Shown piece after piece: positions 35,800 through 53,142 of a stretch of 64,000 nucleotides of DNA. Origin of the DNA: Halogranum gelatinilyticum. GTDB lineage: Archaea > Halobacteriota > Halobacteria > Halobacteriales > Haloferacaceae. The notes under the pieces were generated by a model. That model worked only from the letters and a program-made list of their open reading frames with translations. It did not search any database and was not told the origin of the DNA. Every line of letters begins with the position of its first letter. Position 1 is the first letter of the stretch. Position numbers and translations under genes: made by a program. The stretch spans positions 372,001 through 436,000 of the forward strand of contig NZ_FNHL01000003.1 of assembly GCF_900103715.1 (NCBI RefSeq). The letters are read 5' to 3'.

Positions 35800-35843
35800 T
35801 TAGGCCGACCAAAGAACCAACAGGTATTTTTGGCAGGCCTAAA
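35800..35843 (+). promoter_or_regulatory. Iron-box-like operator over the promoter of the GT75-like gene
   Basis: TTTTGGC-AG-GCCTAAA (35828-35843) is a 7-2-7 inverted repeat with one mismatch to the perfect copy at 37052. It overlaps the TATA-like TATTTTT at 35825-35831, 28 nt before the ATG. A weaker half-matching copy, TTAGGC-CG-ACCAAA, lies at 35800-35813. The type matches DtxR-family (metal-dependent) operators, in which TTAGG and CCTAA are the conserved arms. Confidence 0.6.
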
Positions 35844-35855
35844 AACGAGGGAGCA

Positions 35856-37013
35856 ATGAGTCAGGACATCTGTGTCGTCGTACCGACGATTCGGGAGTAC
35901 GAGTGTATGCGCTCGTACTTCGCAAACGCCCGGAAGCACGGCTTCGACCTCGACCGGCTGTTCGTTCTCTTGGTTACGGAGGATTTCTGCGACACCGACG
36001 AGATGCAGGCGATGCTGGACGACGAGGGCGTCGACGGCGCGGTCTTCGACGGCAGCCGTCGCGAAGAGTGGTACGACGAGCAGGGTGTGAGCGAGTTCGA
36101 ACATATCGTCCCGGCCGCCAGCCACGCCGAGACGAGTTTCGGCCTGCTCTACATGTGGGCGCACGACCGCTTCGACTACGGCGTCTTCATCGACGACGAC
36201 ACGCTCCCGCACGACGAGTGGGACTTCTTCGGCCGTCACATGGAGAACCTCCACTACGAGGGCGAGATCGAGTCCGTTCGCTCCGACGAGCAGTGGGTCA
36301 ACGTGCTCTATCAGAACGCCGACGACCACGGTCTCTATCCGCGCGGCTACCCCTACGGCGCGATGCACGAAACCGTCGAGACCGGTTCGACGGCGGTCTC
36401 GGACGTCGTCGCCTCCCAGGGTCTCTGGACGAACGTGCCGGACCTCGACGCCGTCCGCATCCTGATGGACGGCGATCTCCAGGGGCAGGCCCAGACGCGC
36501 ACGGACTTCGAGGACTTCGACGGCGACTTCGTCGCCGAGCGCGGCCAGTATCTCACCGTCTGCTCGATGAACCTCGCGTTCAAGCGCGAGGTCATCCCGG
36601 CGTTCTACCAGCTGCCGATGGACGACAACGAGTGGGACGTCGGCCGGTTCGACGACATCTGGTCGGGTGTCTTCCTGAAGCGCGCGGCCGACGTCCTCGA
36701 CAAGGACATCGTCAACGGCTACCCGCTCTGTGAGCACAACAAGGCCCCGCGGCCGACGTTCGACGACCTGAACAACGAGGTGCCCGGTCTCGAACTCAAC
36801 GAACATCTCTGGGAGGAGATCGACGACGTCGGCGGCGACGCCGACAGCTACGCGGCGGTCTTCGAGGCGATGGCCGACACGCTCGCCGAGGGCGACTGGG
36901 ACGAGTACACCAACGGAGACTTCTTCACCTTCGTCGGCGAACATATGCACGACTGGCTGGCGTGTCTCGACGCGCTGGAAACCGAGAAGCAAGCCGTCGT
37001 CGCCGACGACTGA
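35856..37013 (+). CDS. GT75-like alpha-1,4-glucan-protein synthase / reversibly glycosylated polypeptide
   Basis: A 385-residue cytoplasmic glycosyltransferase-like protein. The N-terminus ICVVVPTIREYECM starts the nucleotide-sugar-binding fold, and FIDDDTLPHDEW carries the DDD/DxD metal motif. The CSMNLAFKRE and WDVGRFDDIWSG segments are typical of reversibly glycosylated polypeptides (GT75). In plants these proteins auto-glycosylate or mutate UDP-sugars; the archaeal function is not settled. The start is fixed by the TATA box and overlapping operator. It stands between the histidine kinase (divergent) and the Fe(III)-type ABC operon, and shares the operator type with that operon, so expression may respond to iron or manganese. 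Confidence 0.8.
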   Translation: MSQDICVVVPTIREYECMRSYFANARKHGFDLDRLFVLLVTEDFCDTDEMQAMLDDEGVDGAVFDGSRREEWYDEQGVSEFEHIVPAASHAETSFGLLYMWAHDRFDYGVFIDDDTLPHDEWDFFGRHMENLHYEGEIESVRSDEQWVNVLYQNADDHGLYPRGYPYGAMHETVETGSTAVSDVVASQGLWTNVPDLDAVRILMDGDLQGQAQTRTDFEDFDGDFVAERGQYLTVCSMNLAFKREVIPAFYQLPMDDNEWDVGRFDDIWSGVFLKRAADVLDKDIVNGYPLCEHNKAPRPTFDDLNNEVPGLELNEHLWEEIDDVGGDADSYAAVFEAMADTLAEGDWDEYTNGDFFTFVGEHMHDWLACLDALETEKQAVVADD

Positions 37014-37041: not shown

Positions 37042-37067
37042 TTATATATGTTTTAGGCAGGCCTAAA
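37042..37067 (+). promoter_or_regulatory. TATA box and perfect iron-box-like operator of the Fe(III)-type ABC operon
   Basis: TTATATAT (37042-37049) is the TATA box, 28 nt before ATG 37074. Immediately after it sits the perfect 7-2-7 inverted repeat TTTAGGC-AG-GCCTAAA (37052-37067), covering the expected transcription start region. A DtxR/SirR-type repressor bound there would block polymerase. Confidence 0.7.
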
Positions 37068-37073
37068 TCATGT

Positions 37074-38243
37074 ATGGAAGACGACGACGGAGAGCCGCGG
37101 CTGCATAGTCGGCGGCGTATCCTCGGTGCGAGTGGGCTGGTCGGTGCGACCGCACTGGCTGGCTGTAGTAGTTTCCTGCCATCCTCCGGCGGCGACGGTG
37201 GCGACGGCGGGAGCGGCAGCGAACCCGTCGGACAGATCGGTTCCGGACGCTCCCCGTTCGGCGACCGCGACATCTCCGGCGGGGTCTCGATGGCGGAGAT
37301 GCCCGACCTCGAAGGCGAGTTGACCCTCTACTCCGGCCGCGGCGAGCCGCTCGTCGGCACGCTCCTGGAGTACATCGAGGACCTCTACCCCGACTTCACC
37401 ATCCAGCCGCGCTACGGCTCGGCTATCGAGCTCGTCAACCTCATCCAGACCGAGGGCGACAACAGCCCGGCCGACGTGTTCTACTCGGTCAACGCGGGCG
37501 CGCTGGGCCAGCTCGACCAGACCGGTCGCACGCAGACGCTCCCCGACGAAGTGCTCGACTTCGTCCCGGAGAGCTTCCGCGACCCCGACGGTGGCTGGGT
37601 CGGGACCTCCGGCCGCGCGCGGTCGGTCCCGTTCAACACCAACGAGTTTTCGGAGTCGGACATCCCGGACAGCGTTATGGACTTCCCCGGCACGGAGGCA
37701 CTCCGCGACAACGTCGGCTGGGCACCGACGTACTCCTCGTTCCAGGCGTTCGTCACGGCGATGCGCATCCTCGAAGGCGAGGAGGCGACCCGCGAGTGGC
37801 TCCAGGGGATGCAGGACCTCGGCGTCGAGAGTTACAACGACGAGTTCCTCGTCTCGCAGGCCGTCGCCGACGGCGAACTCGGTGCGGGCTTCGCGAACCA
37901 CTACTACACGCTGCGCGTGCAAGCTGGCCGCGCCGATCCGCCCATCTCGCTTGCGTTCACCGAGAACGACGCGGGCGCGATCTTCAACGTCGCCGGCGCG
38001 TCCATCGTCGACACCGCCGAAGACACCGAGCTGGCCGCGAACTTCGTCCGTCACCTGCTCTCGGCGGAGGCACAGGACTACTTCGCCCGCGAGACGTTCG
38101 AGTATCCGCTCGTCCCCGAGGTCGAGCCGCTCGCGGAGCTACCGAGTATCGATGAATTGAACCCGCCCGAGGGGTTAGACCTCACTCAGCTCTCGGACTT
38201 ACAGGGGACCGTCGAACTCCTCCGGGACGTCGGCGTCCTCTAG
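37074..38243 (+). CDS. Fe(III)-type ABC transporter substrate-binding lipoprotein
   Basis: A 389-residue extracytoplasmic binding protein. The N-terminus has a Tat-like SRRRILGAS and a lipobox ending at C31 (LAGC), followed by a Ser/Gly-rich linker. The mature part has the FbpA/IdiA class pattern: LTLYSGRGEPLV opens the first lobe, and FANHYYTLRV gives the two adjacent tyrosines that bind ferric ion in FbpA. The protein ends without a second domain. It is the first gene of a four-gene unit and is directly behind the operator. Iron is the likely cargo, by family and context. Confidence 0.85.
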   Translation: MEDDDGEPRLHSRRRILGASGLVGATALAGCSSFLPSSGGDGGDGGSGSEPVGQIGSGRSPFGDRDISGGVSMAEMPDLEGELTLYSGRGEPLVGTLLEYIEDLYPDFTIQPRYGSAIELVNLIQTEGDNSPADVFYSVNAGALGQLDQTGRTQTLPDEVLDFVPESFRDPDGGWVGTSGRARSVPFNTNEFSESDIPDSVMDFPGTEALRDNVGWAPTYSSFQAFVTAMRILEGEEATREWLQGMQDLGVESYNDEFLVSQAVADGELGAGFANHYYTLRVQAGRADPPISLAFTENDAGAIFNVAGASIVDTAEDTELAANFVRHLLSAEAQDYFARETFEYPLVPEVEPLAELPSIDELNPPEGLDLTQLSDLQGTVELLRDVGVL

Positions 38244-38258
38244 GGCTCACAGACCACC

Positions 38259-39887
38259 ATGGCGACAGACCAGCAGACACAGACGACGGCCGCGGGCGAC
38301 AGCCGAGCGGAGGGCCTACCGTTGGCACCGACCGTCGCGAGTGCCGCCGTCGCCGCTGCCGTGCTACTTCCCTTAGTCTGGCTGGTCAAGACCTCGCTCG
38401 AAGTCGGCTTCAGTGAGGCGTTCTCGCTTCTCACCCGTCCCCGGACGCTCGAAGTGTTCGTCAACAGCGCGCTGCTCGTGACCGCCGTCACGGCCGCGTC
38501 GGTACTGGTCGGCGTCCCGCTGGCGTATCTGACGGTGCGGACGGACCTGCCGTTCAAGAAGTTCTGGACGGTCGCCGTCTCCTTGCCGCTCGTCATCCCG
38601 AGCTACATCGGGGCGTTCGCCTTCGTCTCCGCGCTCGGCCCGCGCGGGACGTTCCAGCGACTGCTCGCGCCGTTCGGCGTCGAACGTCTGCCGGAGATCT
38701 ACGGCTTCGTCGGCGCGAGTCTCGTGCTCACGCTCTACACCTATCCGTACGTCTACATCACGACCCGAGCCGCGCTAAAGTCGATGGACACGACACTCAT
38801 CGACGCCGCTCGGACGCTCGACCACACCCGCTGGGAGGCGTTCAAGCGCGTCACGGTCCCGCAGATTCGCCCCGCCGTCGCCGCCGGGGCTCTCTTGGTC
38901 GCGCTCTACGCGCTCTCGGACTTCGGGACGCCCGCGATCATGCGGTTCGACGCCTTCACGCGGGTCATCTACGTCGAGTTCAACAGCTTCAACCGGAATC
39001 TCGCCTCGTTGCTCTCGCTGCAACTCGTCGGCGTGACGTTTCTCATCCTCGCACTGGAGTCGCGCGTCCGCGGCGACGAACCGCTGCACTCCGGGCGGCA
39101 GGGTGGCCGCACCGGCGACGTGGCCAGACTCGGCGGCTGGAAACTCCCCGCGCTCGGCTTCTGTGCCGCGGTCTCGGGACTCGCGCTCGTCGTCCCCATC
39201 GGCGTCCTCCTCACGTGGTTCGGCCGCGGGACGGCGTCGACGGGTGGCGCGCTGGCCTTCGACCTCTCGTTCGTGCTGAACTCGGTCGGCGTCTCCACCG
39301 CCGCGGCAGTCGTGGCGACGCTCGCCGGGCTTCCGGTGGCGTTCCTCGCCGCTCGCCACCGCTCGAAGCTCTCGAACGTCTTCGAGCGGGCGACCTACGT
39401 CGGCTACGCGGTGCCGGGCGTCGTGCTCGGGCTGGCACTGGTATACGTGGGAACCCAACTCGAGATCGGTGGCGAAGTTCCCCTCTATCAGACGGTCTAT
39501 CTGCTCGTCTTCGCCTACATCGTCCGCTTCCTGCCGCAGGCGGTCGGGTCGATGCGCGCCTCGTTCCTGCGCGTCAACCCGGCACTGCCGGAGGCGGCGC
39601 GGACGCTCGGCCGTACGTCGGCAGGTGCGTTCCGCGAGGTCACGATGCCGCTCATCGCACCCGGCGTCGTCGGCGGCGCGGCACTCGTCTTTCTCACGAC
39701 GATGAAGGAACTCCCGGCGACACTCCTGCTCTCGCCGCCGGGCTTCAGAACGCTCGTCACGCAGGTGTGGGCGGCGTACGAGCAGGGCTACTTCGGGCAG
39801 GCAGCGGTTCCGGCACTCATCCTGCTGTTCGTGTCGGGGCTGTCGATGCTCGTCATCCTCTCACAGGAGGGCTACGATGTCAAGTAA
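38259..39887 (+). CDS. Fe(III)-type ABC transporter permease (two-domain, FbpB-like)
   Basis: A 542-residue permease that contains two fused permease halves, each with about six helices. The EAA loops are DAARTLDHTRWEAFKRVTVP (first half) and EAARTLGRTSAGAFREVTMP (second half), which are the contact points for the ATPase. This fused layout matches FbpB/AfuB of bacterial ferric transporters. It starts 15 nt after the binding-protein gene and overlaps the ATPase gene by 11 nt. Confidence 0.9.
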   Translation: MATDQQTQTTAAGDSRAEGLPLAPTVASAAVAAAVLLPLVWLVKTSLEVGFSEAFSLLTRPRTLEVFVNSALLVTAVTAASVLVGVPLAYLTVRTDLPFKKFWTVAVSLPLVIPSYIGAFAFVSALGPRGTFQRLLAPFGVERLPEIYGFVGASLVLTLYTYPYVYITTRAALKSMDTTLIDAARTLDHTRWEAFKRVTVPQIRPAVAAGALLVALYALSDFGTPAIMRFDAFTRVIYVEFNSFNRNLASLLSLQLVGVTFLILALESRVRGDEPLHSGRQGGRTGDVARLGGWKLPALGFCAAVSGLALVVPIGVLLTWFGRGTASTGGALAFDLSFVLNSVGVSTAAAVVATLAGLPVAFLAARHRSKLSNVFERATYVGYAVPGVVLGLALVYVGTQLEIGGEVPLYQTVYLLVFAYIVRFLPQAVGSMRASFLRVNPALPEAARTLGRTSAGAFREVTMPLIAPGVVGGAALVFLTTMKELPATLLLSPPGFRTLVTQVWAAYEQGYFGQAAVPALILLFVSGLSMLVILSQEGYDVK

Positions 39888-41019
39888 ACTGCAACAACAG
39901 ACGGACGTACTGGGAGACGAATCGGTGACCGACGCAGTCCTCGAACTGGACGACGTGCAGAAACGGTACGGGACGGAGACGGTGATCGACGACCTCTCGC
40001 TGTCCGTGCAGGAGGGCGAAATCCTGACGCTGCTCGGTCCCTCGGGCTGTGGGAAGACGACGACGCTCCGACTCATCTCCGGACTCGAACGGCCCGACGG
40101 CGGCGAGATCCGGCTCAACGGCGACCCGGTCGCCCGTGAGGGGACGTTCGTCCCGCCCGAACAGCGCGGCATCGGCGTCGTCTTCCAGGAGTTTGCGCTC
40201 TTCCCGCATCTCACGGCCCGCGAGAACATCGCCTTCGGACTCAACGAGTGGTCGAAACAGGAGCGCGAGCAGCGTGTCGACGAGATGCTCGACCTCGTCG
40301 GTCTCGCCGACCAGGGCGAGTCGTATCCCGACCAACTGTCGGGCGGCCAACAACAGCGGGTCGCCCTCGCCCGCTCGCTCGCGCCCGAGCCGGAGATGAT
40401 TCTGCTCGACGAACCCTTCTCGAACCTCGACGTCGACCTCCGCGTCCAGATGCGCGAGGAAGTGCGGCGCATCCTCAAGGAGGCGGGCGTCACCGCCGTC
40501 TCCGTCACCCACGACCAGGAGGAGGCGATGTCCATCTCCGACCGCGTCGCCGTCGTCAACGAGGGCCGTATCGAACAGGTCGGCGACCCCGAGGCGGTGT
40601 TCCAACATCCCGAATCGCGCTTCGTCGCCTCCTTCCTCGGCCACGCGAGTTTCCTCTCGGGCTACGTCACCGGCGACGCCGTCGAGACCGACCTCGGAAG
40701 CGTCCCGCGCGAGCAGATCCACGGGCTGGCTCCCGAGTACGACATGACCCGCATCGACATCCTGCTGCGGCCGGACGACGTGAGTGCCCGGATCGCGACA
40801 AACGGCGACGCCCACGGCCACGTCGTCCAGCGGCGGTATCTGGGTCCCACCATCCTCTACGAGGTCCAGTTGGACAACGGCGACACCGTCCAATGTATGC
40901 ACAACCACGACGATACGGTCCCGCTCGACACGGACGTCTCGGTCGCTGTCGACGCGGGCCACGAGCTGTCGTGGTTCCCGCACGGCCAGCGGACGAGTGT
41001 AATGGCCGACGACGACTGA
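39877..41019 (+). CDS. Fe(III)-type ABC transporter ATP-binding protein (FbpC-like)
   Basis: A 380-residue ATPase. Walker A GPSGCGKT lies at residues 54-61, the signature is LSGGQQQRVALARSLA, and Walker B with the D-loop is MILLDEPFSNLD. The H-loop histidine is in SVTHDQEEA. After about residue 240 comes a TOBE-type C-terminal domain, as in FbpC and PotA. It overlaps the permease gene, and the next gene begins 3 nt after its stop. It powers the uptake system with the two preceding proteins. Confidence 0.93.
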   Translation: MSSKLQQQTDVLGDESVTDAVLELDDVQKRYGTETVIDDLSLSVQEGEILTLLGPSGCGKTTTLRLISGLERPDGGEIRLNGDPVAREGTFVPPEQRGIGVVFQEFALFPHLTARENIAFGLNEWSKQEREQRVDEMLDLVGLADQGESYPDQLSGGQQQRVALARSLAPEPEMILLDEPFSNLDVDLRVQMREEVRRILKEAGVTAVSVTHDQEEAMSISDRVAVVNEGRIEQVGDPEAVFQHPESRFVASFLGHASFLSGYVTGDAVETDLGSVPREQIHGLAPEYDMTRIDILLRPDDVSARIATNGDAHGHVVQRRYLGPTILYEVQLDNGDTVQCMHNHDDTVPLDTDVSVAVDAGHELSWFPHGQRTSVMADDD

Positions 41020-41022
41020 GGA

Positions 41023-43287
41023 ATGGACCGAGCCCTCCGAAACCGGCTGTTCTCCGTCCTCGGCCTCGTCGTCGCCCTCCTCGCGGGCGTCGCAGTCTAC
41101 GCGCTCGCGACGAACCTCTTTCCGTACCACTCGGTCAACGACGACGAGGGCGTCTACCTCCTCCAGGCCGCGATGCTGCTGGAGGGACAGCTGTTCATCT
41201 ACCCCGGCCAACTGGCCGAGGTCGTCCGGCCGTGGTTCTTCGTCGTCGCCGACGCGCCAGCCGAGGTCGGCGGCGTCAAGATGTACGGCAAGTATTCGCC
41301 CGTCGCCCCCGCGGTGTTCGCGCTGTCGAAACTGCTCACGGGCGACTTCAACGTCGTCCTCGGCGTTCTCGCAGCCGGGAGTGCCGCGCTCGTCTACGCG
41401 CTGACAGCCGAGGCGTTCGACCGCAAGACGGGCGTTCTGGCGGGACTCGTCTTGCTCGGGTCGCCACTCTTCTTGGTCACCTCCTCGACCTTCCTCGCCT
41501 ACGCGCCGACGACGTTCTTCAACCTCCTCTTCGCCTTCGCCTACGTCCGCTCCCGACGGAGTGGGGAAAACCTGGCCCTGGCGTGGGGCGCGCTTGCGGG
41601 TACTGCCATCGGCGTCGCGTTCTTCGCACGGTCGTATACGGCAGTGCTGTTCGCCCTCCCGTTCATCGGCCACGCGCTCGTCTCGCTGGCCCGGACGTGG
41701 GGGAAGGACGCGTTCGAGCCGACGCTGCGGAATCTACTCGCTGTCGCGCTACCTGGCCTTGCCTTCGTGGTCCTGACGCTCGCGTACAATCTCGTCGTGA
41801 CGGGCGACCCGCTGGTGTTCCCCTACGCCGCGTTCGCGCCACGGGACGGTCTCGGCTTCGGTCCCCACGAGATCCTCGGCTACGAGGAGAACTACACGCC
41901 GACGCTGGCGGCCGAGACGACCGTCCGCCTGCTCGTCCTCTTCGCGACCGAGTGGACGACTGCAGGGCTGTTCGGGACGGCCGCCTTCCTCGTCGGCTTC
42001 GGGGTCGTACTCTGGCGGGCGGTCGTCCCGACCGGGGCGGTGCAGGCGCGACTGTCGCAGTTCGGTGGCGGTCGGAAGAGACGCGGTGGGCGCGGGAGCC
42101 GAACGAAGACGTCGCTGTCGAAGGGCGGGAAGAAGCGACGTCGGACGCGACAGCAGTCACGCCGCTCGCCGCTCTCGAAGGCCGGGCGCGTGACGAACCG
42201 GCTGTCCGACCGGGAGCTCCGGCTCGTCCTCGCCGGGCTCGTTCCGAGCGTCGTCCTCGGCAACGCCTACTTCTGGGGGACGCACAACGGCCTCCGAAAC
42301 GACCTCATCGAGCTCTTGGGTCCCTTCTACCACTTCGACCTCCTGCTGCCGCTCTCCGCGTTCGGAGCCTACGGCGTCCTCGTGACGGCCCGGACGCTGG
42401 CGCGGGAGTCCCGAGCGCGCTTTTCGGCCTCCGAAGTCCGGGGGGTGCTCCTGCTCGCGCTCGTCGTCACGGCACCGCTCGCGGCGACGGCGGAGATGCA
42501 GGTGCTCTCGGAGCCGTTCGAGGAGAACGGCCAGCGTACGGCCAACCTGGCGACGACCTACGAACCCATCGTGGAGACCGAGTTCGACGACGCGCTCGTC
42601 TACGTGCCCGACCCCTACGGCGACTGGCAACAGCATCCGTTCCAGTATCTCCGGAACGACCCCGGCTTCGACGGCGACGTCGTCTACGCGCTCGACGAAG
42701 GGCCGGACAGAGACATCGAGACGCTGGACGCCGTCGGCGACAGGACGCCCTACCGCTTTACCTACCGCGGGGAGTGGTCCGGCGCGGTCGAACCGGTGAC
42801 GCCCGCGCTGGTGCCGCTGGAAGTGTTGGAGGGCGACCGCGTCGAGGCGACGTCGACGCTCGGAACTCCGGCACAGGCGTCGGCGGCGACGGTCCGACTG
42901 GAGACCGAGGAGGACTACGCCCGCTACACGGTCGACGACGTTGGGGAGTCGGTTCGCGTCGACTGGGCCATCACGGCCGACAGCGCGCGTGTGAGTAACC
43001 TCCCGCGGGCCGGGGGTGCGGCGGAACTCGCCGTCCCCGACGGTGCGAGCGAGGTCGACCTCGTCGTCACGTTCGTCACCGAGTCGGGCGCGACCGTGAC
43101 CTACCGGCAGGAGGCGACCGTCGACAGCCGAGGCGACGAGGTTCGCGCCCTCTGGCCGCCGGAGACGCGGGTCTGTCGGCTGACGACCGAGTGCGGGATG
43201 GACCGCACCTACGTCGGTCCCGACGGGGACTATCTCTCGGGCGTCTCCGTCGAGACGGACGCCCGCGCCGTGAACGAGACGGCCTAA
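41023..43287 (+). CDS. GT-C type membrane glycosyltransferase (PMT/ArnT-like) with polybasic loop
   Basis: A 754-residue protein with about ten to eleven hydrophobic helices in residues 1-480 and a soluble C-terminal domain of about 260 residues. The first extracytoplasmic loop has HSVNDDEGVYLLQAA, the acidic motif of the GT-C superfamily (GT39/GT83), which uses lipid-linked sugars. A cytoplasmic loop near residues 350-391 is extremely basic (RKRR, KKRRR, RRSP), which is very unusual for a haloarchaeal protein. The gene starts 3 nt after the ABC ATPase and must share its mRNA. It would transfer sugars to proteins or lipids at the outer face. The linkage to iron uptake is observed; its meaning is inference. 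Confidence 0.75.
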   Translation: MDRALRNRLFSVLGLVVALLAGVAVYALATNLFPYHSVNDDEGVYLLQAAMLLEGQLFIYPGQLAEVVRPWFFVVADAPAEVGGVKMYGKYSPVAPAVFALSKLLTGDFNVVLGVLAAGSAALVYALTAEAFDRKTGVLAGLVLLGSPLFLVTSSTFLAYAPTTFFNLLFAFAYVRSRRSGENLALAWGALAGTAIGVAFFARSYTAVLFALPFIGHALVSLARTWGKDAFEPTLRNLLAVALPGLAFVVLTLAYNLVVTGDPLVFPYAAFAPRDGLGFGPHEILGYEENYTPTLAAETTVRLLVLFATEWTTAGLFGTAAFLVGFGVVLWRAVVPTGAVQARLSQFGGGRKRRGGRGSRTKTSLSKGGKKRRRTRQQSRRSPLSKAGRVTNRLSDRELRLVLAGLVPSVVLGNAYFWGTHNGLRNDLIELLGPFYHFDLLLPLSAFGAYGVLVTARTLARESRARFSASEVRGVLLLALVVTAPLAATAEMQVLSEPFEENGQRTANLATTYEPIVETEFDDALVYVPDPYGDWQQHPFQYLRNDPGFDGDVVYALDEGPDRDIETLDAVGDRTPYRFTYRGEWSGAVEPVTPALVPLEVLEGDRVEATSTLGTPAQASAATVRLETEEDYARYTVDDVGESVRVDWAITADSARVSNLPRAGGAAELAVPDGASEVDLVVTFVTESGATVTYRQEATVDSRGDEVRALWPPETRVCRLTTECGMDRTYVGPDGDYLSGVSVETDARAVNETA

Positions 43288-43787
43288 AATTCTACCTGGG
43301 CGACGAGTTCCGCGAGCCGCGGGAAGGCGGCGATGCCGACGGCACCGACGAGCAGGGAGAAACTGGCCGAGAGCAGCGGCGTAACCGAACCCAAGAAGCC
43401 ACCGCCGTAGCCGGCGACGAGGAGGACGAGATTGTAGTAGCCGAGACGGAACGCGACGAGTTCCGGCGTCAGCGACACCCAGCCGCGGACGTCGCTGCCG
43501 AGGGGCTTCAGCCAGCCGCCGCGGAGCAACGCGCCGACGAGGACCATCGCCATCCACGCGATCATCGTCGACCCCTTGATGCCGCCGTAGCTGATGCCCG
43601 TCGTCGTCAGGACGTGGTAGAGCGCGGGCAGCGAGAGGACCGACAGCTCGGCGAAGACGAAGACGACGTCGTCGATGAACTGGCCGTAGCTGTCCTTCTC
43701 GGTGAACCCACCCGTGCCGTGGCCGCCCCACGTCCAGCGACGGCTACTCTCTGCGGCTTCCGTGTCTCGACCGGGGACGTTGGACAT
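43284..43787 (-). CDS. Hypothetical membrane protein (167 aa)
   Basis: A 167-residue protein. A charged N-terminus with tryptophans (RRWTWGGHG) is followed by about four hydrophobic helices. The phrase FTEKDSYGQFIDDVVF joins the soluble and membrane parts. I do not recognise the family, though it reads like a conserved haloarchaeal protein. Its stop codon overlaps that of the convergent glycosyltransferase gene by 4 nt (43284-43287). Confidence 0.7.
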   Translation of the reverse strand: MSNVPGRDTEAAESSRRWTWGGHGTGGFTEKDSYGQFIDDVVFVFAELSVLSLPALYHVLTTTGISYGGIKGSTMIAWMAMVLVGALLRGGWLKPLGSDVRGWVSLTPELVAFRLGYYNLVLLVAGYGGGFLGSVTPLLSASFSLLVGAVGIAAFPRLAELVAQVEF

Positions 43788-43885: not shown

Positions 43886-46294
43886 CTACAGCTCGCGCGT
43901 CCAGACGACGGCCTGATTGTTCGCGAGTTCGAAGTCGTCGGTTGCGTCGTCGACGCCCGGAGCCGCGAGTTCGACCTCCCAGCCCTCGGTCGCCAGCGGG
44001 ACCTCCAGCTCCTCACGGAGGAACGCCGGCGACACCTCGACCGGGACGCCCTCCATGTTGGCCGCGAACAGCACCTGCTCGTCGCCGTCGGGCGACTCGC
44101 GCAGGCCGTAGTAGAGGACCGTCCCCTCCGTCGGATGGACGTAGCCGAAGTCCTCGCGGTCGTAGTCAAGGTCGTCTAGAAGCCACTCGCGCTCCTGGCG
44201 GAACTCCCGTACCGAGAGGTCGAAGGCGGTCCGCTCGTCGTCCTGCGAGTCGTGCCAGTGAGAGAGGTTCGCGAAGTCGTGGACGTCCTGCATCCACGCG
44301 TAGGCGTAGGCTTCGAGGTCGGCCGCCGAGAGGTCGTCGCCGAACGGCTGGTCCATCGCCGACAGCATATCGGCCATCACGTCGAGGTCGTAGTCCGTCG
44401 CCTTGACCGTCGACGACAGTGCTTCCATGAACGTCTGGAGGCCGTCACGGCTCTCGAAGCCGAGGTCTTTGATACGCTGGAAGTGCGCGGGGTTCTCGAA
44501 GTCCTCGTCGCGCACCTGCCAGTAGAGGAACTTCGACTCGTCGGAGACGACCTTGACGTTCCACACTGAGTCGGTGTCGCGGACGAAGCCCCACGGGGCG
44601 CGCATGTTGGCGTGGACGAAGTCCATCGGGACGCCGGGCAGCATACAGTGGAACAGCATCGACGACGCCGGGTTGTTGTAGGCCTCGTCGAGCGTCTCGG
44701 GGTAGTCGTCGCCGAGGTAGGGATTCACCGGCGACTGGTTGAATTCGACCGTCGGGTCGATCTGCGTGCCGCGCCGGATGGTGTCGTGGTTGGCGACGCC
44801 GGTCAGCCAGTTGCCGCCGAAGTCCGCGACCTCGCGGACGCGCCACCACTTCGTCGCCCAGAAGGTGAGGAGCGCGGGCGTGTTGTGCGCGAAGGTGATG
44901 GGCGACCACTGGAACGAGTGGGGATGCTGTTCGATGAGCGCGCGATACGTGGAGGCGAGTTCCCAGTCCTCGCGCGGCCACGGGCGGCCGTCCTCGTAGA
45001 TCATCCACGGGCGGTACTCCTGGCCCGCGACCTCCTGGACGATGTGGTCCATCTCGGCCAGATAGTCGTCGTCGTGGATGCTCTCCTCCAACTCGGGGTC
45101 CCAGTTCGTGAAGTCCTGCGCGCCGTCGACGCGGATGCCGTCGGCACCGAAGTCCATCTTGCGGCGCTGCATTTCGAGGAGCACCGCGCGGACGACGGGG
45201 TGGGGATACTCCAGCTCCTGGCCGTACATCCCCGGACCCTCGAAGTAGTAGTCGTTGAGCAGCTGCAGACCGCCGTTGTCGGAGTGGCCGAGGGCGATGT
45301 CGAAGACGATGCGGATCGGTTCGGGGAGGTTGTGGCACGTCGCGATGAAGTCGACAAGTTCGTCGGGACGGCCCGTCTCGAGGATGGCGGGGTTCGTCGC
45401 CGAGAACGCCGAGATGACGATGTCGTAGCCCCAGTTGATCATATCCGGCCGGTCGACGCTGACCTCGATTTTCTCGGCCTCGTCGTCGTCGGTCTCCACG
45501 GACCAGAAGTCGTGGATGTCCTCGTTCTCGGTGATGGGTTCGACCGGCATCACCTGGATGGCGTCGTAGCCGACGAAGTTGCGCTCGGCGGGTGTGAGGT
45601 CCTCGCCCGCGCGGAGCGTCTCGCCGATGTCCTCGTACTGGCGGGCGAGGCCGCCGAGCGACCCTGATTCGGTCGCGGTGCCGGGGTGAATCTCGACCAT
45701 GCTCGTCGCCGGGTCGACGCGCGGCACGCCGTCGTCCTCGGTCGTCGAGATACGCTCCTCGTCGGTACCGAAGGCCTGGAAGTAGTCGCGGTCCGCGCGC
45801 TCCTCGTCCAGTTTCTCCATGTCGTAGAGTTCGGCGGGCGCGAACGCGCCGAACGGCACCGAGTAGGCGACGGGGTCGGGAACGGTGTGCCACTCGCCGT
45901 CGTGCTCGTAGGCGAGTTGGTAGAGCGACCCGAGTGCCTCGCGGGTCCCGGGCTTCATGCCCTCGACGACGCCCCAGTGGAACTCGCCGTTTCGCTGCAG
46001 GGGGACGCGCTCGCGGTGGAACGACAGGGAGTCGTGGCCGTAGGGGTCGACGTCCTCGGTCGGCGTGAGGATTTCGAGGTAGACGTCCGAGTCAGGGACG
46101 TCCGCGTCGAGCAGTTCGGGCGTCCAGAAGCCGACTTCGGCGCGGCCGTCGGTGTAGTGCGCGCCGAGTCGCTGGACGATCTCTTTCATCGCCTCAAATC
46201 TGTCGTCGTGTTCGGCGAGGGTCTCGTCGTGCCAGTCGACGAGGTCCTGCGTCTGGGCTTCGAGTAGGGTGGGTTCTCCGTAGGTTTGGCTCAT
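43886..46294 (-). CDS. GH13-like glycosidase, probably glucosylglycerol-hydrolase-like
   Basis: An 802-residue intracellular protein (no signal). A catalytic (beta/alpha)8 portion is visible in IVFDIALGHSDNGG, ADGIRVDGAQDF (nucleophile Asp) and PWMIYEDGRPW (acid Glu region), and GVANHDTIRR (transition-state Asp region). These are GH13 regions I-IV in degenerate form. The N-terminal 150 residues and the long inserts are unlike alpha-amylases. The overall pattern recalls proteins annotated as glucosylglycerol hydrolase (GghA), but I cannot check this. It lies 114 nt downstream of the amylase gene on the same strand and is probably in its operon. Confidence 0.6.
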   Translation of the reverse strand: MSQTYGEPTLLEAQTQDLVDWHDETLAEHDDRFEAMKEIVQRLGAHYTDGRAEVGFWTPELLDADVPDSDVYLEILTPTEDVDPYGHDSLSFHRERVPLQRNGEFHWGVVEGMKPGTREALGSLYQLAYEHDGEWHTVPDPVAYSVPFGAFAPAELYDMEKLDEERADRDYFQAFGTDEERISTTEDDGVPRVDPATSMVEIHPGTATESGSLGGLARQYEDIGETLRAGEDLTPAERNFVGYDAIQVMPVEPITENEDIHDFWSVETDDDEAEKIEVSVDRPDMINWGYDIVISAFSATNPAILETGRPDELVDFIATCHNLPEPIRIVFDIALGHSDNGGLQLLNDYYFEGPGMYGQELEYPHPVVRAVLLEMQRRKMDFGADGIRVDGAQDFTNWDPELEESIHDDDYLAEMDHIVQEVAGQEYRPWMIYEDGRPWPREDWELASTYRALIEQHPHSFQWSPITFAHNTPALLTFWATKWWRVREVADFGGNWLTGVANHDTIRRGTQIDPTVEFNQSPVNPYLGDDYPETLDEAYNNPASSMLFHCMLPGVPMDFVHANMRAPWGFVRDTDSVWNVKVVSDESKFLYWQVRDEDFENPAHFQRIKDLGFESRDGLQTFMEALSSTVKATDYDLDVMADMLSAMDQPFGDDLSAADLEAYAYAWMQDVHDFANLSHWHDSQDDERTAFDLSVREFRQEREWLLDDLDYDREDFGYVHPTEGTVLYYGLRESPDGDEQVLFAANMEGVPVEVSPAFLREELEVPLATEGWEVELAAPGVDDATDDFELANNQAVVWTREL

Positions 46295-46408: not shown

Positions 46409-48367
46409 TCAGTCCTGAATCGGCAGGACGGCGACGTCCTCGACCGTGAGTTCGCCGTCGACGAGGACGTCCTCGCCGGAGACGGCGTCGCGCGTCAGGA
46501 CGGACTCGGCGACCGAGAAGGTCGCGGGCTCGGAACCGAAGTTGAGTGCGACGACGTAGCCTTCGCCACCGTTCTGTCTGACGAAGGTCGTCACGCGGTC
46601 GGAGTCGGACTGGTAGTCGACGCGACGGAACTCGCCTTCGAAGCCGAGGGCGTCGACCTCGTTGCGCGTCTCGACGAGCGTCTCGTAGTGGTCGCGCAGT
46701 CCCTCGTTGGCGTGCTCCCACGCGAGGGCGTCACGGCGGCCGCGCTGGCCGAGTTCCTGGCCGCCGTAGAGCATCGGGACGCCGGGGAGCGTGAACAGCG
46801 CGCCCGCGGACGCCATCGCCTCGGACTCGCCGCACTCGACGATGTATCGCGTCTCATCGTGGTTCTCCTGGTAGAGCATGAACGACGCGTGGTCCGGGAA
46901 GCCGACCTCGGCGCGCTGCTCGATAGCGTCGAGGATGGCGTCGGCGTCCTCGTGGCCGTTGCCGACCTGCCGGAGCGTGAAGTAGAGCGTCGTGTCGAAG
47001 TGCATATCGAACATCCCGTTGTGGAAGTCCGCGATGTACGGGATAGTCTCGTCGAGGAGCAGGAAGTCGCGGTCGTAGGACTTCACACGGTCGCGCAGTT
47101 CCTGCCAGAAGGCGTTGGGGACGGCCCACGCCATGTCGCAGCGGAAGCCGTCGGCGACCTGCATCCACTCGTCGACCGCGTCGAGGAGATACCGCCGGAC
47201 CTTCGTGTTCTCGAAGTTCCAGTTGGCGATGAGTTCCCAGTCGAAGTAGGTGCCCGGCTCGCCGTTGTCCTGCCATTCGTACCAGTCGTAGTACTCGGAG
47301 TCCGGATTCTGGTAGGCGTCCTCGAAGTACGGATGTTCGCGCGCGGAGTGGTTCATCACGAGGTCGAAAAGCACCTTCATCCCGCGGTCGTGGGCGGCGT
47401 CGACGAAGGCTTCGTAGTCCTCGCGGGTGCCGAGGTCCTCGGCGATGTCGAAGAAGTCGACGATGTTGTAGCCGTGCGGCGGGTCGTCGTTCTGGAGCAC
47501 GGGCGTCAGCCAGAGACAGTCGACGCCGAGCTCTTCGAGATAGTCGAGCCGCTTCGTCAGTGCCTCGAAGGTGTTGTCGGCCTCGTCGTCGTCGGAGGCG
47601 AAGCCGCGGACGTAGATCTCGTAGAGCGTGACTTCCTTCGACCACTCCGGCGGGTCGTTGAGACGGACGACCGAGACGGACTCGCCGGCCTTCTCGACGG
47701 AGACGGAGTCCGGAACCGAGTACGACTCGCCGATGGCGACGCCGTGGACGCGGATCCGCTCGTCGAACGCCGAGATCGGGATGTGGACCTCGCGGCCCTC
47801 GATGGTGACCTCGCTGCGGTCGACCGCGTCGCGGTCGTCGAGCAGGAACTCGACGTCGAGGTCGTCGGGCGAGAGCTTGCTGTGGGGGTGCGGCTGCGGA
47901 TGGGCCTCGACGACGACGGTGTCGCCCTCGACGCGGCCGTGCAGCTGGACGCGCGGACGGCCGCCTTCGCCTTCCTTCTCGGCACCACGTGCCCCGCTGC
48001 CGGAGCCGCTGATGCCGGAGAGACCGGAGATGCCCGAGACACCGGAGACGCCCGAGACGCCGCTCCAGCCACTCATGCCGCTCATGCCGCTGGCACCGAG
48101 ACCGGTGCCGCCGACGGGGCGGAGCGAGCCGGGGAACGCGCGGACGGTGAGTTCGTGGACGCCGTCGGGGGCGTCGAGTTCGATGACGTAAGTACCGGGT
48201 GCGTCAGGGGTGAACTCCTCGACGTCGTCGGTGCCGAGAGTCGCCTGACTGGTTACGGGTGCACTTTTGACGTGCCAACTGTACGTCGCGCCGGGGTCCG
48301 GGTCCCGCGGCGCGAGTTCAAGCGTGTCGCCCACGGCAGCGAACCGGGGCGGACCAGGGTGATGCAT
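46409..48367 (-). CDS. malA: Alpha-amylase family protein (GH13) with xSG-repeat linker
   Basis: A 652-residue amylase without a signal peptide. Residues 1-85 form a PKD-like beta domain and residues 92-125 an xSG tripeptide-repeat linker. A further beta domain (about 135-225) is followed by the GH13 barrel from about residue 235. Region I DLVMNHS, region II GFRCDMAW (Asp nucleophile), region III LLLDETIPY (Glu acid) and region IV YQENHDETR (Asp) are all present. The C-terminal beta domain ends at PIQD. It should hydrolyse internal alpha-1,4 bonds of maltodextrins or glycogen. Gene name by homology to haloarchaeal MalA. An inverted repeat upstream may bind a regulator. Confidence 0.85.
   Translation of the reverse strand: MHHPGPPRFAAVGDTLELAPRDPDPGATYSWHVKSAPVTSQATLGTDDVEEFTPDAPGTYVIELDAPDGVHELTVRAFPGSLRPVGGTGLGASGMSGMSGWSGVSGVSGVSGISGLSGISGSGSGARGAEKEGEGGRPRVQLHGRVEGDTVVVEAHPQPHPHSKLSPDDLDVEFLLDDRDAVDRSEVTIEGREVHIPISAFDERIRVHGVAIGESYSVPDSVSVEKAGESVSVVRLNDPPEWSKEVTLYEIYVRGFASDDDEADNTFEALTKRLDYLEELGVDCLWLTPVLQNDDPPHGYNIVDFFDIAEDLGTREDYEAFVDAAHDRGMKVLFDLVMNHSAREHPYFEDAYQNPDSEYYDWYEWQDNGEPGTYFDWELIANWNFENTKVRRYLLDAVDEWMQVADGFRCDMAWAVPNAFWQELRDRVKSYDRDFLLLDETIPYIADFHNGMFDMHFDTTLYFTLRQVGNGHEDADAILDAIEQRAEVGFPDHASFMLYQENHDETRYIVECGESEAMASAGALFTLPGVPMLYGGQELGQRGRRDALAWEHANEGLRDHYETLVETRNEVDALGFEGEFRRVDYQSDSDRVTTFVRQNGGEGYVVALNFGSEPATFSVAESVLTRDAVSGEDVLVDGELTVEDVAVLPIQD
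48005..48094 (-). repeat. Nine-nucleotide repeats encoding ten xSG units in the amylase
   Basis: Ten consecutive tripeptides of the form x-S-G (x = A, M, W, V, I or L) occupy residues 92-121. The codons differ between units, so selection on the peptide pattern, not DNA slippage alone, is likely. Confidence 0.75.
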
Positions 48368-48577: not shown

Positions 48578-48600
48578 TAGTGGAACCCGCCAGTGCGTCT

Positions 48601-51600
48601 ATGCGACTGCGAACCGCGCTGAACGAATACAAACGGATGCGGGGGGCACGCTTCCCCGAAGAGTGCCCGACCGCAGCGGGCGCGTTCTCCGGCCACGGGG
48701 ACCGGCTTGTCTACGTCGACCCCGGTGGCTACATCCGCGACTACTCCTCCTCGTTGTCGGGGCTGTACGGCATCGACCGCTCACGGTTTGGCATCGAAAC
48801 CGACGACGAGACCTACTGGTTCGACGAACTCGACTCGGTGCGCCAACACTACTACCGCGAGACCAACGTCGTCGAGACGGAGTACGACGCCGGTGGCTTC
48901 ACCGTCCACCAGTACGACCTCACGCTCGGCCGCGCACACGTCACCCACGTCGAACTGCGCGGCGCGATCCCGGCCGACGCCCATCTGACGGCCTTTCTCA
49001 CCTTCGCCCCCGAGGGCCGTGAGACGCAGGTCGGCCGCCTCATCCACGAGAACGGCGGTCCCAACGGGACGAAAGCCGTCGAGGTCTTCCACCGCAACGA
49101 ACACGACTACGTCACCGCCTCGACCGGTCTCGACGACGTCCGCGGGCAGATCCCCGAACGGTTCGACGAGATGCTCTCGGACGGCTACTTCGACTTCCCG
49201 CGCGACGCCGTCCTCAACCGCTACGAGGACACCCACCTCAGCGGCGACGTCGTCGTCAGTGCCCCGCTCGAACGCGAGGGGCGGGCCGCCCAGACGACGC
49301 TCGTCACCCAACTCTCCGACCACCAGTCGATCAGCCGCGAGGACGCCCTCGCGGACCTCCGTCACTGTGCGGACCACCACGCCAACGCCGACGCCCTGCG
49401 ACGGGCGGGCCGCCAGCGGACGGAGGTGAACGTCCCCGAGAACGCGCCGCGTTCGGACCTCGTCCGCGCCGACCTGCGGGTGCTCTCCTTGCTCACCGCG
49501 CCGACCGGCGCGCATATCGCCGGACCGGAGTTCGACCCCTTCTTCACCAACTCCGGCGGCTACGGCTTCACCTGGTTCCGCGACGACGCGGAGGTCGCCA
49601 CGTATCTGATGGAGGTCGACCACCTCCTCGACCTGCGGGTCGACGAGGACCTCCAGACGAGCGCGCAGTTCTACTGCGACACCCAACAGCCCGACGGGAC
49701 GTGGCCTCACCGCGTCTGGGCCGTCGACGGAAGTCTCGCCCCCGGCTGGGCACACGCCCGCGTCGAGGGGGCCGACAGCCCCGAGTACCAGGCCGACCAG
49801 ACGGCGAGCGTCCTCGCCTATCTCGCCCGCCTGCTCCGCGAACGCGGCAACGGACTCTCCCACGACCTGACGAGCGAGATCCGCGAGACGATCCGTACGG
49901 GAATCACCGGTCTCGACGACTCGCTGGAAGACGACGGGCTTCCCGAGCGGTGTCAGAACCTCTGGGAGAACATGAACGGCCGCTTCAGCCACACGGCTGC
50001 CACCTTCCTGAAGGCGTACACCGCGGTCGCTCGTGCCCCTGTCGACGAGAACCTCCGAACACACGCCCACGAGCAGGCGAAGACGGTCTACGAGGCACTC
50101 GACGAGTTCTGGGTCGAGGACAAGGAGATATACGGTCTCCGACTCGACGGCGGTCATCTCGACGACCGCTACGACTCGGCGACGTTCGCCTTCGTGGAGG
50201 CGATCGCCGGCTACGACTCGCTGGAAGGCATCACCGGCGACGACCTCGACCGGCTGACGACACACGTCGAGAACGTCATCGACGGGCTGTTCCGTGACCC
50301 GCGGGGGACGCCGGTCGCCGGACTTGCCCGCTTCGAAGAGGACTACTGGCGGAGTCAGGGACAGGACGACGAGAAGGTCTGGTCGGTCTCGACCGGCTGG
50401 GGAGCCAACGCGGCGGCCCAACTCGGCGTGCTTCTCGAGGAGTTCGGTCGCGACGCGAAAGCCGAGACGCTGTTCGAGCGCGCGGGCGAACTGTACGAAC
50501 TCATCGACCGCGACGGACCGCTGTGTACGACGGCGGGCTATCTCGCCGAACAGGTGTTCGACGACGGGACGCCGGACAGCGCGGCCCCGCTCGGCTGGTC
50601 GCACGCCATCCGCCTGCACACGACCGCGCTCCTCCGCGAGTACGACGCACTACCGTCGGCGAAGCAGTCGCCGTCCGGCCCCGCGGAGCATCCGCGGTGG
50701 ACGACCGGCGAGAAGTACGGCGTCGGCACCGTCGCCGACCACGGCGACGAGGACCCCTCGCGGGTCTGGTTCACCCTCACCGAGGGCGCGCTGACGGAGG
50801 TCCGGTTCCCGCGGGTCGACCTGATGAACCTGCGGACGATGGACTTCCTCGTCGTCGACACGGACCCGAAGGCCGAGTACACGGCCCGGACGCACAACGA
50901 GACCCGCCGTGACGACGACGCCGACACCATCGAGCGGCGCGCGGAGATGGCCGACGACGACGCGCTGCTCTTCCGGCAGACGACGAGCGAGCAGGGCGAC
51001 GGCCGTGGCCACGAGTGGACGCTCCAGGTCGAGTACGCCGTCGACCCCGAACACGACGCGCTGCTCACTGAACTCCAGTTCGAGGCCCACGACGACAACG
51101 AGTACGAGGTCTACGTCATCGGCGACACGGCGTTGACGAATACCGGGACGAAGGACCGCGGTCTCCGGCTGGGCCAGCCCGGTCGCCACCATCTCGTCGC
51201 CCGCGACGCCACCGCCTACGACAAAGGGAAAGAGGACGACCCGCTGCTCATCGACGAGGACGGCGAGCCGTACAGTATCGCCGTCGCGCTCACGGCCACG
51301 GAGCGGTTCGACTGGGCCACCGTCGGCGTCGCTGGCTCGGAGTATCTCGCACAGCTGTTCAGCGAGGGCGAACTGCCCGACTCCCGCGAGCGCGTCGACG
51401 ACGAGAACGTCGTGCTCGTGGGACGCGTCGGCGGCGGGACGGAGGTCCAAGAGACGCTCGCGCTCGGCTTCGCGGAGAACGCCGACACCGCCGCCGCACT
51501 CGGTGAGGCCGTCGGGGCACTCACTCGCAGCTACGAGACGGTGCGGACCGCGTATCTCGACTCGTGGGCGTCGTTCCTCGCGGACAAGCCGCTCCCCGAG

Positions 51601-53142
51601 GCCATCGAGGGAGAGGACGCGCTCGCGAACCAGTACAAGGCCGCGCTGATGGGGCTGCGTGCCGTCGAGGACAAGACGTTCCTCGGGGCGGGCATCGCCT
51701 CGCCGTCGGTCCCCTGGGGCGAGGCCGTCTCCGCCGACGAGTCGAAGGGGTACGGCTACAACTTCGTCTGGTCGCGCGACCTCTATCAGGTCTTTACGGT
51801 CTTCTGGGCCATCGGCGACCTGAAGACCGCGACCGACGCCCTGGAGTATATCTACACCCTCCAGCAGGACGACGAGGGCTTCATCCCGCAGAACACCTAC
51901 CTCAACGGGCGGACCCGCTGGGGTGGCGAGCAGATGGACAACATCTCCTTCCCACAGGTGATGGCCTACATGCTCAAAGAGTCGGGCGTCGACTTCGAGG
52001 ACACGAGCTACGACTTCCAGAACGTCAAAGCCAGTGCCGACTACGTCGCCCGCAACGGGCCTGAGACCGCCCAAGAGCGGTGGGAGGAGGAGGCGGGCTA
52101 CTCGCCCTCCTCTATCGCCGCCGAGATCGCCGGACTCGCGTGTGCGGCGGCCATCGGTCTCGACGACGGTCACGAGGCCGACGCGCTCATCTGGCTCGCA
52201 CTCGCCGACGAGTGGACGGCCAACATCGAAGAGTGGACCGCGACCGAGACCGGCACCGAACTGCACGACAACACTCCCTACTACGTCCGCGTCACCCGCG
52301 ACGGCGATCCCGAGGCGGGCCATCTGCGGACGCTCGCCAACGCCGGGCCGACGCTCGACGAACGCGAGATCATCGACGGCGGCTTCCTCGAACTCACGCG
52401 ACTGGGAATCAAGCCGTACGACGACGACGTCATCCTGAACACTATCACGGAGTACGACGAGACCATCCGCATCGATACGCCGTACGGGCCCGCGTGGTAC
52501 CGCTACAACGGCGACGGCTACGGCGAGCAGGGCGTCGGTGCCGAAGGTGCCCCGTGGACCGTCGAGACGAAGGGCAAGGGTCGGCTGTGGCCCATCTTCA
52601 CCGGCGAGCGCGGCGAGTACGAACTGCTCGCCGGGACTGACGAGGGCGACCTTGACCCGACGAACCTCCTGCGGACGATGGAGGGCTTCGCCAACTCCGG
52701 ACGGATGCTCGCCGAGCAGGTCTGGGACCGCCAGCACGCCACCGAGTACAACTGGGAGTTCGGCGAGGGGACCGGGTCGGCGACGCCGCTGGCCTGGAGT
52801 ATGGCGCAGTACGTCCGACTCGCCCACGGCATCGACGCCGGGAAGCCGGTCGAGATGCCCGCGTTCGTCTACGACCGCTACGTCGAGCGCGACCGCCCCG
52901 ACGGGCCGTCGCTCCGCGTCGACACGCGCTTCAGCGGCGACCATCTCGAAGTGATGGGCGAGACTGACGGCGCGGTCGTCTCGATTCGCACGCCGTCCGA
53001 GACGGTACTCGTCGAACCCGACGACGGCGAGTTCGAGGCCGTTGTCCGCATCGAACACGGCGAGAACCAGGTCACCGTCGCCGCCGCCAGCGACGCGGAC
53101 CTGCGCGAAGCCGGGACGACGGTCCGACGCTTCACGCTCTAG
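48601..53142 (+). CDS. Tandem GH15-type glucoamylase/glucodextranase fusion (1513 aa)
   Basis: A 1513-residue intracellular protein with two related halves. Module 1 (residues 1 to about 685) has an N-terminal beta domain and an (alpha/alpha)6 barrel with FTWFRDDAEV and, at the end, APLGWSHA. Module 2 (about 700-1513) opens with WTTGEKYGVGTV, has its own beta domain, then YNFVWSRDLYQVF and TPLAWSMA in corresponding places. WxRD and P-L-x-W-S are the usual GH15 barrel marks, so each half seems to be a full enzyme of about 700 residues. GH15 members remove glucose from the non-reducing ends of alpha-glucans. The two halves may have different specificities. It is divergent from the amylase operon. 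Confidence 0.85.
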   Translation: MRLRTALNEYKRMRGARFPEECPTAAGAFSGHGDRLVYVDPGGYIRDYSSSLSGLYGIDRSRFGIETDDETYWFDELDSVRQHYYRETNVVETEYDAGGFTVHQYDLTLGRAHVTHVELRGAIPADAHLTAFLTFAPEGRETQVGRLIHENGGPNGTKAVEVFHRNEHDYVTASTGLDDVRGQIPERFDEMLSDGYFDFPRDAVLNRYEDTHLSGDVVVSAPLEREGRAAQTTLVTQLSDHQSISREDALADLRHCADHHANADALRRAGRQRTEVNVPENAPRSDLVRADLRVLSLLTAPTGAHIAGPEFDPFFTNSGGYGFTWFRDDAEVATYLMEVDHLLDLRVDEDLQTSAQFYCDTQQPDGTWPHRVWAVDGSLAPGWAHARVEGADSPEYQADQTASVLAYLARLLRERGNGLSHDLTSEIRETIRTGITGLDDSLEDDGLPERCQNLWENMNGRFSHTAATFLKAYTAVARAPVDENLRTHAHEQAKTVYEALDEFWVEDKEIYGLRLDGGHLDDRYDSATFAFVEAIAGYDSLEGITGDDLDRLTTHVENVIDGLFRDPRGTPVAGLARFEEDYWRSQGQDDEKVWSVSTGWGANAAAQLGVLLEEFGRDAKAETLFERAGELYELIDRDGPLCTTAGYLAEQVFDDGTPDSAAPLGWSHAIRLHTTALLREYDALPSAKQSPSGPAEHPRWTTGEKYGVGTVADHGDEDPSRVWFTLTEGALTEVRFPRVDLMNLRTMDFLVVDTDPKAEYTARTHNETRRDDDADTIERRAEMADDDALLFRQTTSEQGDGRGHEWTLQVEYAVDPEHDALLTELQFEAHDDNEYEVYVIGDTALTNTGTKDRGLRLGQPGRHHLVARDATAYDKGKEDDPLLIDEDGEPYSIAVALTATERFDWATVGVAGSEYLAQLFSEGELPDSRERVDDENVVLVGRVGGGTEVQETLALGFAENADTAAALGEAVGALTRSYETVRTAYLDSWASFLADKPLPEAIEGEDALANQYKAALMGLRAVEDKTFLGAGIASPSVPWGEAVSADESKGYGYNFVWSRDLYQVFTVFWAIGDLKTATDALEYIYTLQQDDEGFIPQNTYLNGRTRWGGEQMDNISFPQVMAYMLKESGVDFEDTSYDFQNVKASADYVARNGPETAQERWEEEAGYSPSSIAAEIAGLACAAAIGLDDGHEADALIWLALADEWTANIEEWTATETGTELHDNTPYYVRVTRDGDPEAGHLRTLANAGPTLDEREIIDGGFLELTRLGIKPYDDDVILNTITEYDETIRIDTPYGPAWYRYNGDGYGEQGVGAEGAPWTVETKGKGRLWPIFTGERGEYELLAGTDEGDLDPTNLLRTMEGFANSGRMLAEQVWDRQHATEYNWEFGEGTGSATPLAWSMAQYVRLAHGIDAGKPVEMPAFVYDRYVERDRPDGPSLRVDTRFSGDHLEVMGETDGAVVSIRTPSETVLVEPDDGEFEAVVRIEHGENQVTVAAASDADLREAGTTVRRFTL

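Follow-up and report, generated by a model that had tools for sequence, protein, structure and literature searches.

A putative GT-C glycosyltransferase encoded with ferric iron uptake genes and co-inherited with two sugar enzymes in Halobacteriales

In a 64-kb stretch of Halogranum gelatinilyticum DNA (the window), an operon for ferric iron uptake ends in a gene for a membrane glycosyltransferase (GT), which we think probably acts in the membrane as the last step of a pathway devoted to surface glycosylation, within the haloarchaeal iron-starvation regulon. GT is inherited, lost and, judging by operator-like palindromes, regulated together with iron uptake and two sugar enzymes, a GT75 protein (RGP) and a GT2 enzyme, implying that cells probably alter their surface sugars when iron is short. 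The initial annotation had suggested that cell-surface glycan changes follow iron state, an idea favoured by the conserved synteny, the operators before RGP and the ferric-binding lipoprotein gene (SBP), and the lack of a promoter-like sequence of its own before GT. Features of the locus are listed in Table 1.

Table 1. Features of the locus, with positions in the window.
Feature	Position	Strand	Basis or remark
Operator-like palindrome TTTTGGCAGGCCTAAA, 1 mismatch	35828..35843	.	12 nt before RGP start
RGP / GT75-like protein, predicted NDP-pyranose mutase	35856..37013	+	Pfam RGP 3.5e-15; PDB profile matches; invariant catalytic residues
TATA-like box TTATATAT of SBP promoter	37042..37049	+	Sequence; AT-rich box in relatives
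Operator-like palindrome TTTAGGCAGGCCTAAA, perfect	37052..37067	.	Between TATA-like box and SBP start, 6 nt before start
Ferric-binding (FbpA-like) lipoprotein, SBP	37074..38243	+	Pfam, PDB profile, NHYY invariant
ABC permease, two fused BPD_transp_1 domains	38259..39887	+	Pfam; an orthologue carries the annotation 'iron ABC transporter permease'
ABC ATPase with TOBE domain	39877..41019	+	Pfam
Predicted GT-C membrane glycosyltransferase (GT), C-terminal extracytoplasmic DUF7846	41023..43287	+	Pfam, AlphaFold, Foldseek, invariant D41/E42
Polybasic loop (residues 350-394), disordered and cytoplasmic by prediction; lineage-specific expansion	42070..42204	+	Alignment, AlphaFold, charge count
DUF7846 domain, residues 524-698	42592..43116	+	Mostly beta, C-terminal to last membrane helix

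The membrane glycosyltransferase and its polybasic loop

GT (754 aa) is present as a single copy in the genome, and its nearest named relatives are from Halogranum amylolyticum and H. rubrum. The reading-frame coordinates and Pfam agree with the initial annotation of a membrane glycosyltransferase starting 3 nt after the TGA that ends the ATPase gene, with matches to PMT_2 (28.8 bits against a cut-off of 26.1) and DUF7846 (190 bits against 26.3). Sequence similarity to characterised GT-C enzymes was weak, PMT_2 being just over its cut-off, and a PDB sequence search with the GT profile gave no useful match, so the fold was predicted by model. The AlphaFold model (mean pLDDT 90, pTM 0.89) has a multi-helix GT-C membrane fold, which Foldseek matched with probability 1.0 to AglB, OST, ArnT, Pmt4 and AftA, and also to ALG9; one of the best of these matches was ArnT, with a TM-score of 0.55 on the target. 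Within the first extracytoplasmic loop, D41 and E42 correspond to the acidic D/E motif of GT-C enzymes and were invariant in 56 homologues. Going by the modelled fold, this motif and the PMT_2 match, GT is a member of the GT-C superfamily (PMT/ArnT/OST-like). Lipid-linked sugars are the donors of PMT/ArnT-type GT-C enzymes. Identity as an AglB/STT3 oligosaccharyltransferase was rejected, as inspection found no WWDXG motif (and no WWD anywhere in the protein) and the C-terminal domain is DUF7846. A survey of the phylum (295 genomes) detected DUF7846 in 40, all within Halobacteriales.

Basic runs such as KKRRR near residues 350-391, in an acidic setting, had been pointed out in the initial annotation, and the protein bears this out: the loop contains RKRR and KKRRR, residues 335-395 include 20 K+R and zero D/E, and residues 350-394 have a net charge of +19, the highest of all 45-aa stretches in the nine ORFs compared. 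Acidic residues outnumbered basic ones more than twofold in 6 of 8 neighbouring proteins (all but the permease and that of the small ORF downstream). A helix count starting at the N-terminus and the charge suggest that the loop lies on the cytoplasmic side, where the positive-inside rule leads one to expect a few basic residues beside a membrane helix. The first reading of this stretch was that the loop could bind acidic phospholipids or RNA, and a strongly charged segment free of acidic residues and probably cytoplasmic would suit such a role, even one central to the enzyme. We nevertheless regard this as extremely improbable, given that the loop varies in length, sequence and charge even among the closest relatives and is predicted to be disordered. 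Across 61 homologues (own sequence included) the segment had a median of 25 aa and a net charge of +2, compared with 72 aa and +21 here, and in two Halogranum congeners it had 34 aa and charges of +7 and +9. GT alignments from whole-genome searches mostly broke at the loop, and pLDDT was below 50 over most of it, against an average of about 90 for the rest of GT. In the alignment, the large expansion is confined to this species. A loop that is not conserved was named in the initial annotation as grounds for giving up its proposal, and this is what the alignment shows. Because the loop is short and weakly charged in nearly all homologues, predicted disordered and expanded only locally, we rejected a general loop function, and the alignment of the 61 homologues rules it out as a conserved functional element.

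Iron uptake genes and partner sugar enzymes

Iron uptake, as annotated initially, is backed by the SBP profile, which matched ferric-binding proteins in the PDB (best E 1.4e-80), and by the NHYY sequence with its adjacent tyrosine pair, a trait of FbpA-type proteins that was invariant in homologues. Ferric ABC transporters of the FbpABC kind that are controlled by DtxR-family regulators likewise combine an FbpA-like SBP, the tyrosine dyad and a palindromic operator over the promoter; unlike them, the operon here ends in a GT-C gene and has a GT75 gene as its neighbour.

The nearby gene previously described as GT75-like encodes a genuine RGP/GT75 protein by Pfam. A profile search of the PDB retrieved the GT75 enzyme MtdL (1.4e-29; the entry is named 'Transglycosylse', PMC9937993) and a UDP-arabinopyranose mutase (1.3e-5). 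The metal-binding and catalytic residues of MtdL are Asp109-111, Arg159, Asp195, Ser228, Arg257, Asp260 and His287 (PMC9937993). In RGP, the DDD metal motif D112-D114 and the His ligand H293 (numbering from the Ser after Met) were invariant in 24 sequences, and R162, D195, S236, R263 and D266, the equivalents of MtdL Arg159, Asp195, Ser228, Arg257 and Asp260, were all invariant as well. Like the NDP-pyranose mutases MtdL and plant UAM (PMC9937993), RGP has the DDD motif, the acceptor Arg, the metal-binding His and the catalytic Arg/Asp pair, and mutase activity on an NDP-sugar is predicted; the MtdL substrate/phosphate contacts Asp87, Gln229, Arg289 and His292 are His, Met, Lys and Arg in RGP, and its substrate is not predictable. 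RGP relatives are usually annotated as alpha-1,4-glucan-protein synthase. GT75 mutases produce NDP-furanoses.

The third enzyme, GT2, is encoded outside the window, 93 kb from RGP in the same genome (G000:C3:314421-315101; loci L114 and L198), with an operator upstream. It resembles archaeal dolichyl-phosphate mannose synthase and scores 406.9 bits with the NCBIfam model NF041391 for haloarchaeal dolichyl-phosphate hexose transferase (cut-off 375) and 142.6 bits with the AglJ model TIGR04182, below the cut-off of 325.

Operators, gene order and co-occurrence

The pattern TTTAGGNNNNCCTAAA had two matches in the window (before SBP and, with one mismatch, before RGP), compared with 0.01 expected by chance. 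Genome-wide there were 16 sites, and 0 for a reversed control pattern. Regulon content was taken from the loci around these genome-wide matches, and the products encoded behind other sites include three lipoproteins with Peripla_BP_2 domains, one FecCD permease and one protein of the GSDH family. Judged by such content (siderophore/iron transport genes), the TTTAGGNNNNCCTAAA sites mark an iron regulon. Among individual sites, a perfect operator precedes a glucose/sorbosone dehydrogenase-family lipoprotein, which one would not expect in an iron regulon (L102, G000:C1:506798), an operator with one mismatch immediately precedes a small acidic ORF (MAATDGSEEPDF...; L110, G000:C1:1118045), and paired operators about 36 bp apart precede siderophore-type binding proteins (L105-L107 and L112, on G000:C4 and C2).

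A signal for FerR, of the DtxR family, before the fhu genes of Haloferax and a FerR regulon (Leyn and Rodionov 2015) are both cited in passages of PMC11349517. Because haloarchaea have several DtxR-type regulators, we infer the regulator and even the metal; the TTTAGGNNNNCCTAAA motif would be the FerR operator. The palindrome is conserved, as expected of a DtxR-family (FerR/Idr) regulon, and regulator binding and iron-dependent expression are predicted. RGP, SBP, GT and GT2 are not named in Table 1 or the text passages of an iron-starvation proteome (PMC11349517) that we consulted.

Among relatives, operators of this type (at most one mismatch) were found before SBP in 58/58 loci and before RGP in 57/57, and directly before GT in 0/60. 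With up to two mismatches in the named loci, a set partly overlapping the 60 relatives' loci, the counts were 72/73 for RGP, 66/74 for SBP and 0/79 for GT. An AT-rich box preceded the SBP operator in 55 of 58 relatives, and A/T content just upstream was 0.30 for GT versus 0.54 for SBP. The initial annotation had offered a separate promoter as grounds for abandoning its proposal, but nothing promoter-like precedes GT; we rejected such a promoter on the operator missing in 60 loci and the GC-rich upstream sequence, which leaves room for a weak internal one. GT2 lay downstream of GT on the opposite strand (convergent) in 32 of the 60 relatives, always with an operator (32/32). When 30 loci with GT2, linked or not, were fetched, the operator was within 150 bp in 27 and at -158 to -224 in the other three, and seven GT2 copies out of 48, from Halocatena and a few MAG lineages, had no recognisable operator.

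Gene order in the 60 relatives' loci was RGP-SBP-permease-ATPase-GT, RGP-SBP-GT or RGP-SBP-permease-GT with few exceptions, and 80 named loci gave the same picture. Synteny of GT with SBP was kept in nearly all loci across Halobacteriales, which makes the linkage to iron uptake stronger than originally claimed. In H. rubrum (L118; G001:C6/C14), GT is apart from the ABC genes and RGP and GT2 are carried by a different contig, a natural rearrangement in which none of the three enzymes is lost. In Halocatena (L192, L193), RGP adjoins GT, no SBP was detected and GT2 is without a recognisable operator; this is possibly a lineage with changed regulation. Beyond the operon, a small ORF on the opposite strand (43284-43787, -) overlaps the GT stop codon by 4 nt; it had no Pfam or NCBIfam match, and a homologue near GT in just one of 60 relatives (L090). 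Large carbohydrate-enzyme-like ORFs follow (43886-46294, -; 46409-48367, -; 48580-53142, +), and since only some relatives have them behind the operon, we see no tie between them and the iron cluster.

SBP was followed directly by GT, with permease and ATPase elsewhere, in 15/60 loci (and in many named loci), and in 11/11 tested genomes lacking the three sugar enzymes a close SBP orthologue was absent or at most 46% identical, compared with at least 55% where GT was present. Both observations would fit an iron-uptake accessory, with GT specifically modifying the neighbouring ferric-binding lipoprotein or its complex instead of serving as a general surface-glycan enzyme. We consider this unlikely: three loci (L118, L192, L193) retain GT without a neighbouring SBP, and co-regulation alone would be enough to explain the adjacency of the two genes.

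Presence of GT and RGP was identical genome by genome (both in 117/147, neither in 30/147), and GT2 agreed with them in 60/60 genomes tested. Together with RGP's own iron-type operator, the match in 147/147 genomes makes the suggested link between GT and the GT75 gene firmer than it was first stated. The three genes are unlinked in several genomes (the present one, G001, G008 and G022), and since co-occurrence holds there too, linkage alone is not the explanation. Absences are spread over many families and include at least five genera with other, gene-bearing members, which implies repeated losses, and absence from 30 of 147 genomes indicates that GT is not a housekeeping gene. The same patterns bear on whether GT could be a mere passenger, sitting last in an iron operon and engaged in housekeeping glycosylation, its place there devoid of regulatory meaning. 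As the last gene, with no operator of its own, GT could look like one, but its linkage is kept across many families, RGP and GT2 have their own iron-type operators and the same presence pattern even when unlinked, and 30 of the 147 genomes do without GT, so we judge a passenger role very unlikely.

A candidate iron-responsive glycosylation pathway

In the pathway we favour, low iron would release a DtxR-family repressor from the TTTAGGNNNNCCTAAA operators, and derepression would switch on three units: RGP, the SBP-permease-ATPase-GT operon and the unlinked or neighbouring GT2. RGP would supply an NDP-furanose, the GT2 product would load a hexose onto dolichyl phosphate, and GT would pass the sugar from its lipid, outside the cell, to a surface acceptor. 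The sequences show the joint inheritance, synteny, operators, folds and catalytic residues; that iron is the signal, what chemistry each enzyme performs and that all three work in one pathway we infer. Co-inheritance does not prove a single pathway; RGP could have a different use for furanoses, or may act at a different step (for example on a further sugar) from the sugar loaded by GT2. The three enzymes might even belong to separate surface or storage-sugar pathways that are all simply iron-repressed, in keeping with the presence of other non-transport genes in the regulon (the GSDH-family lipoprotein) and with the common annotation of RGP as a glucan-protein synthase. The identical presence patterns (147 genomes for GT and RGP, 60 for GT2) and the frequent convergent adjacency of GT and GT2 argue against this, and we think it rather improbable.

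The single pathway would have the same layout as bacterial ArnC-ArnT (lipid A aminoarabinose), in which a GT2 polyprenyl-phosphate sugar synthase is paired with a GT-C transferase; there the acceptor is lipid A, the sugar is different and DUF7846 is lacking. Our working model is AglD-AglS (with AglR) of Haloferax volcanii, a dolichyl-phosphate mannose synthase and a dolichyl-phosphate-mannose mannosyltransferase according to passages of PMC5867893 and PMC3871713, where a single sugar is first attached to dolichyl phosphate by a glycosyltransferase in the cytoplasm, and its transfer on the outside then falls to a membrane enzyme. The likeness to this pair is one of scheme, and the same passages describe neither an NDP-pyranose mutase nor iron regulation for it. 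New relative to both schemes would be the iron-type regulation, the GT75 partner and DUF7846. In the open literature we found no description of this combination and nothing direct on GT75 or iron-dependent glycosylation in haloarchaea, although these genes could be among those listed for the DtxR regulon in 2015.

Salinity switches Haloferax between two N-glycans, and whether other cues change haloarchaeal N-glycans is asked in the same review (passages of PMC3871713). That switch is likewise a change of surface glycosylation on an environmental cue in a haloarchaeon; here, the cue would be iron, acting via DNA operators, and the enzymes differ. More tentatively, and at somewhat less than even odds, we propose an order-wide pathway induced by iron starvation (GT75 mutase, dolichyl-phosphate sugar synthase and DUF7846 GT-C enzyme) that places a furanose-containing glycan on surface proteins and is functionally tied to ferric-ion capture, such that iron, like salinity, rewrites the archaeal surface.

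Operators and shared presence bind three glycosylation enzymes and an iron transporter together in an order that includes the genetically tractable Haloferax, and they offer a likely role for DUF7846 and for those archaeal GT75 proteins that carry the annotation glucan-protein synthase. If the proposal is true, an iron-dependent surface could have consequences for the capture of metals, the attachment of viruses and cell recognition.
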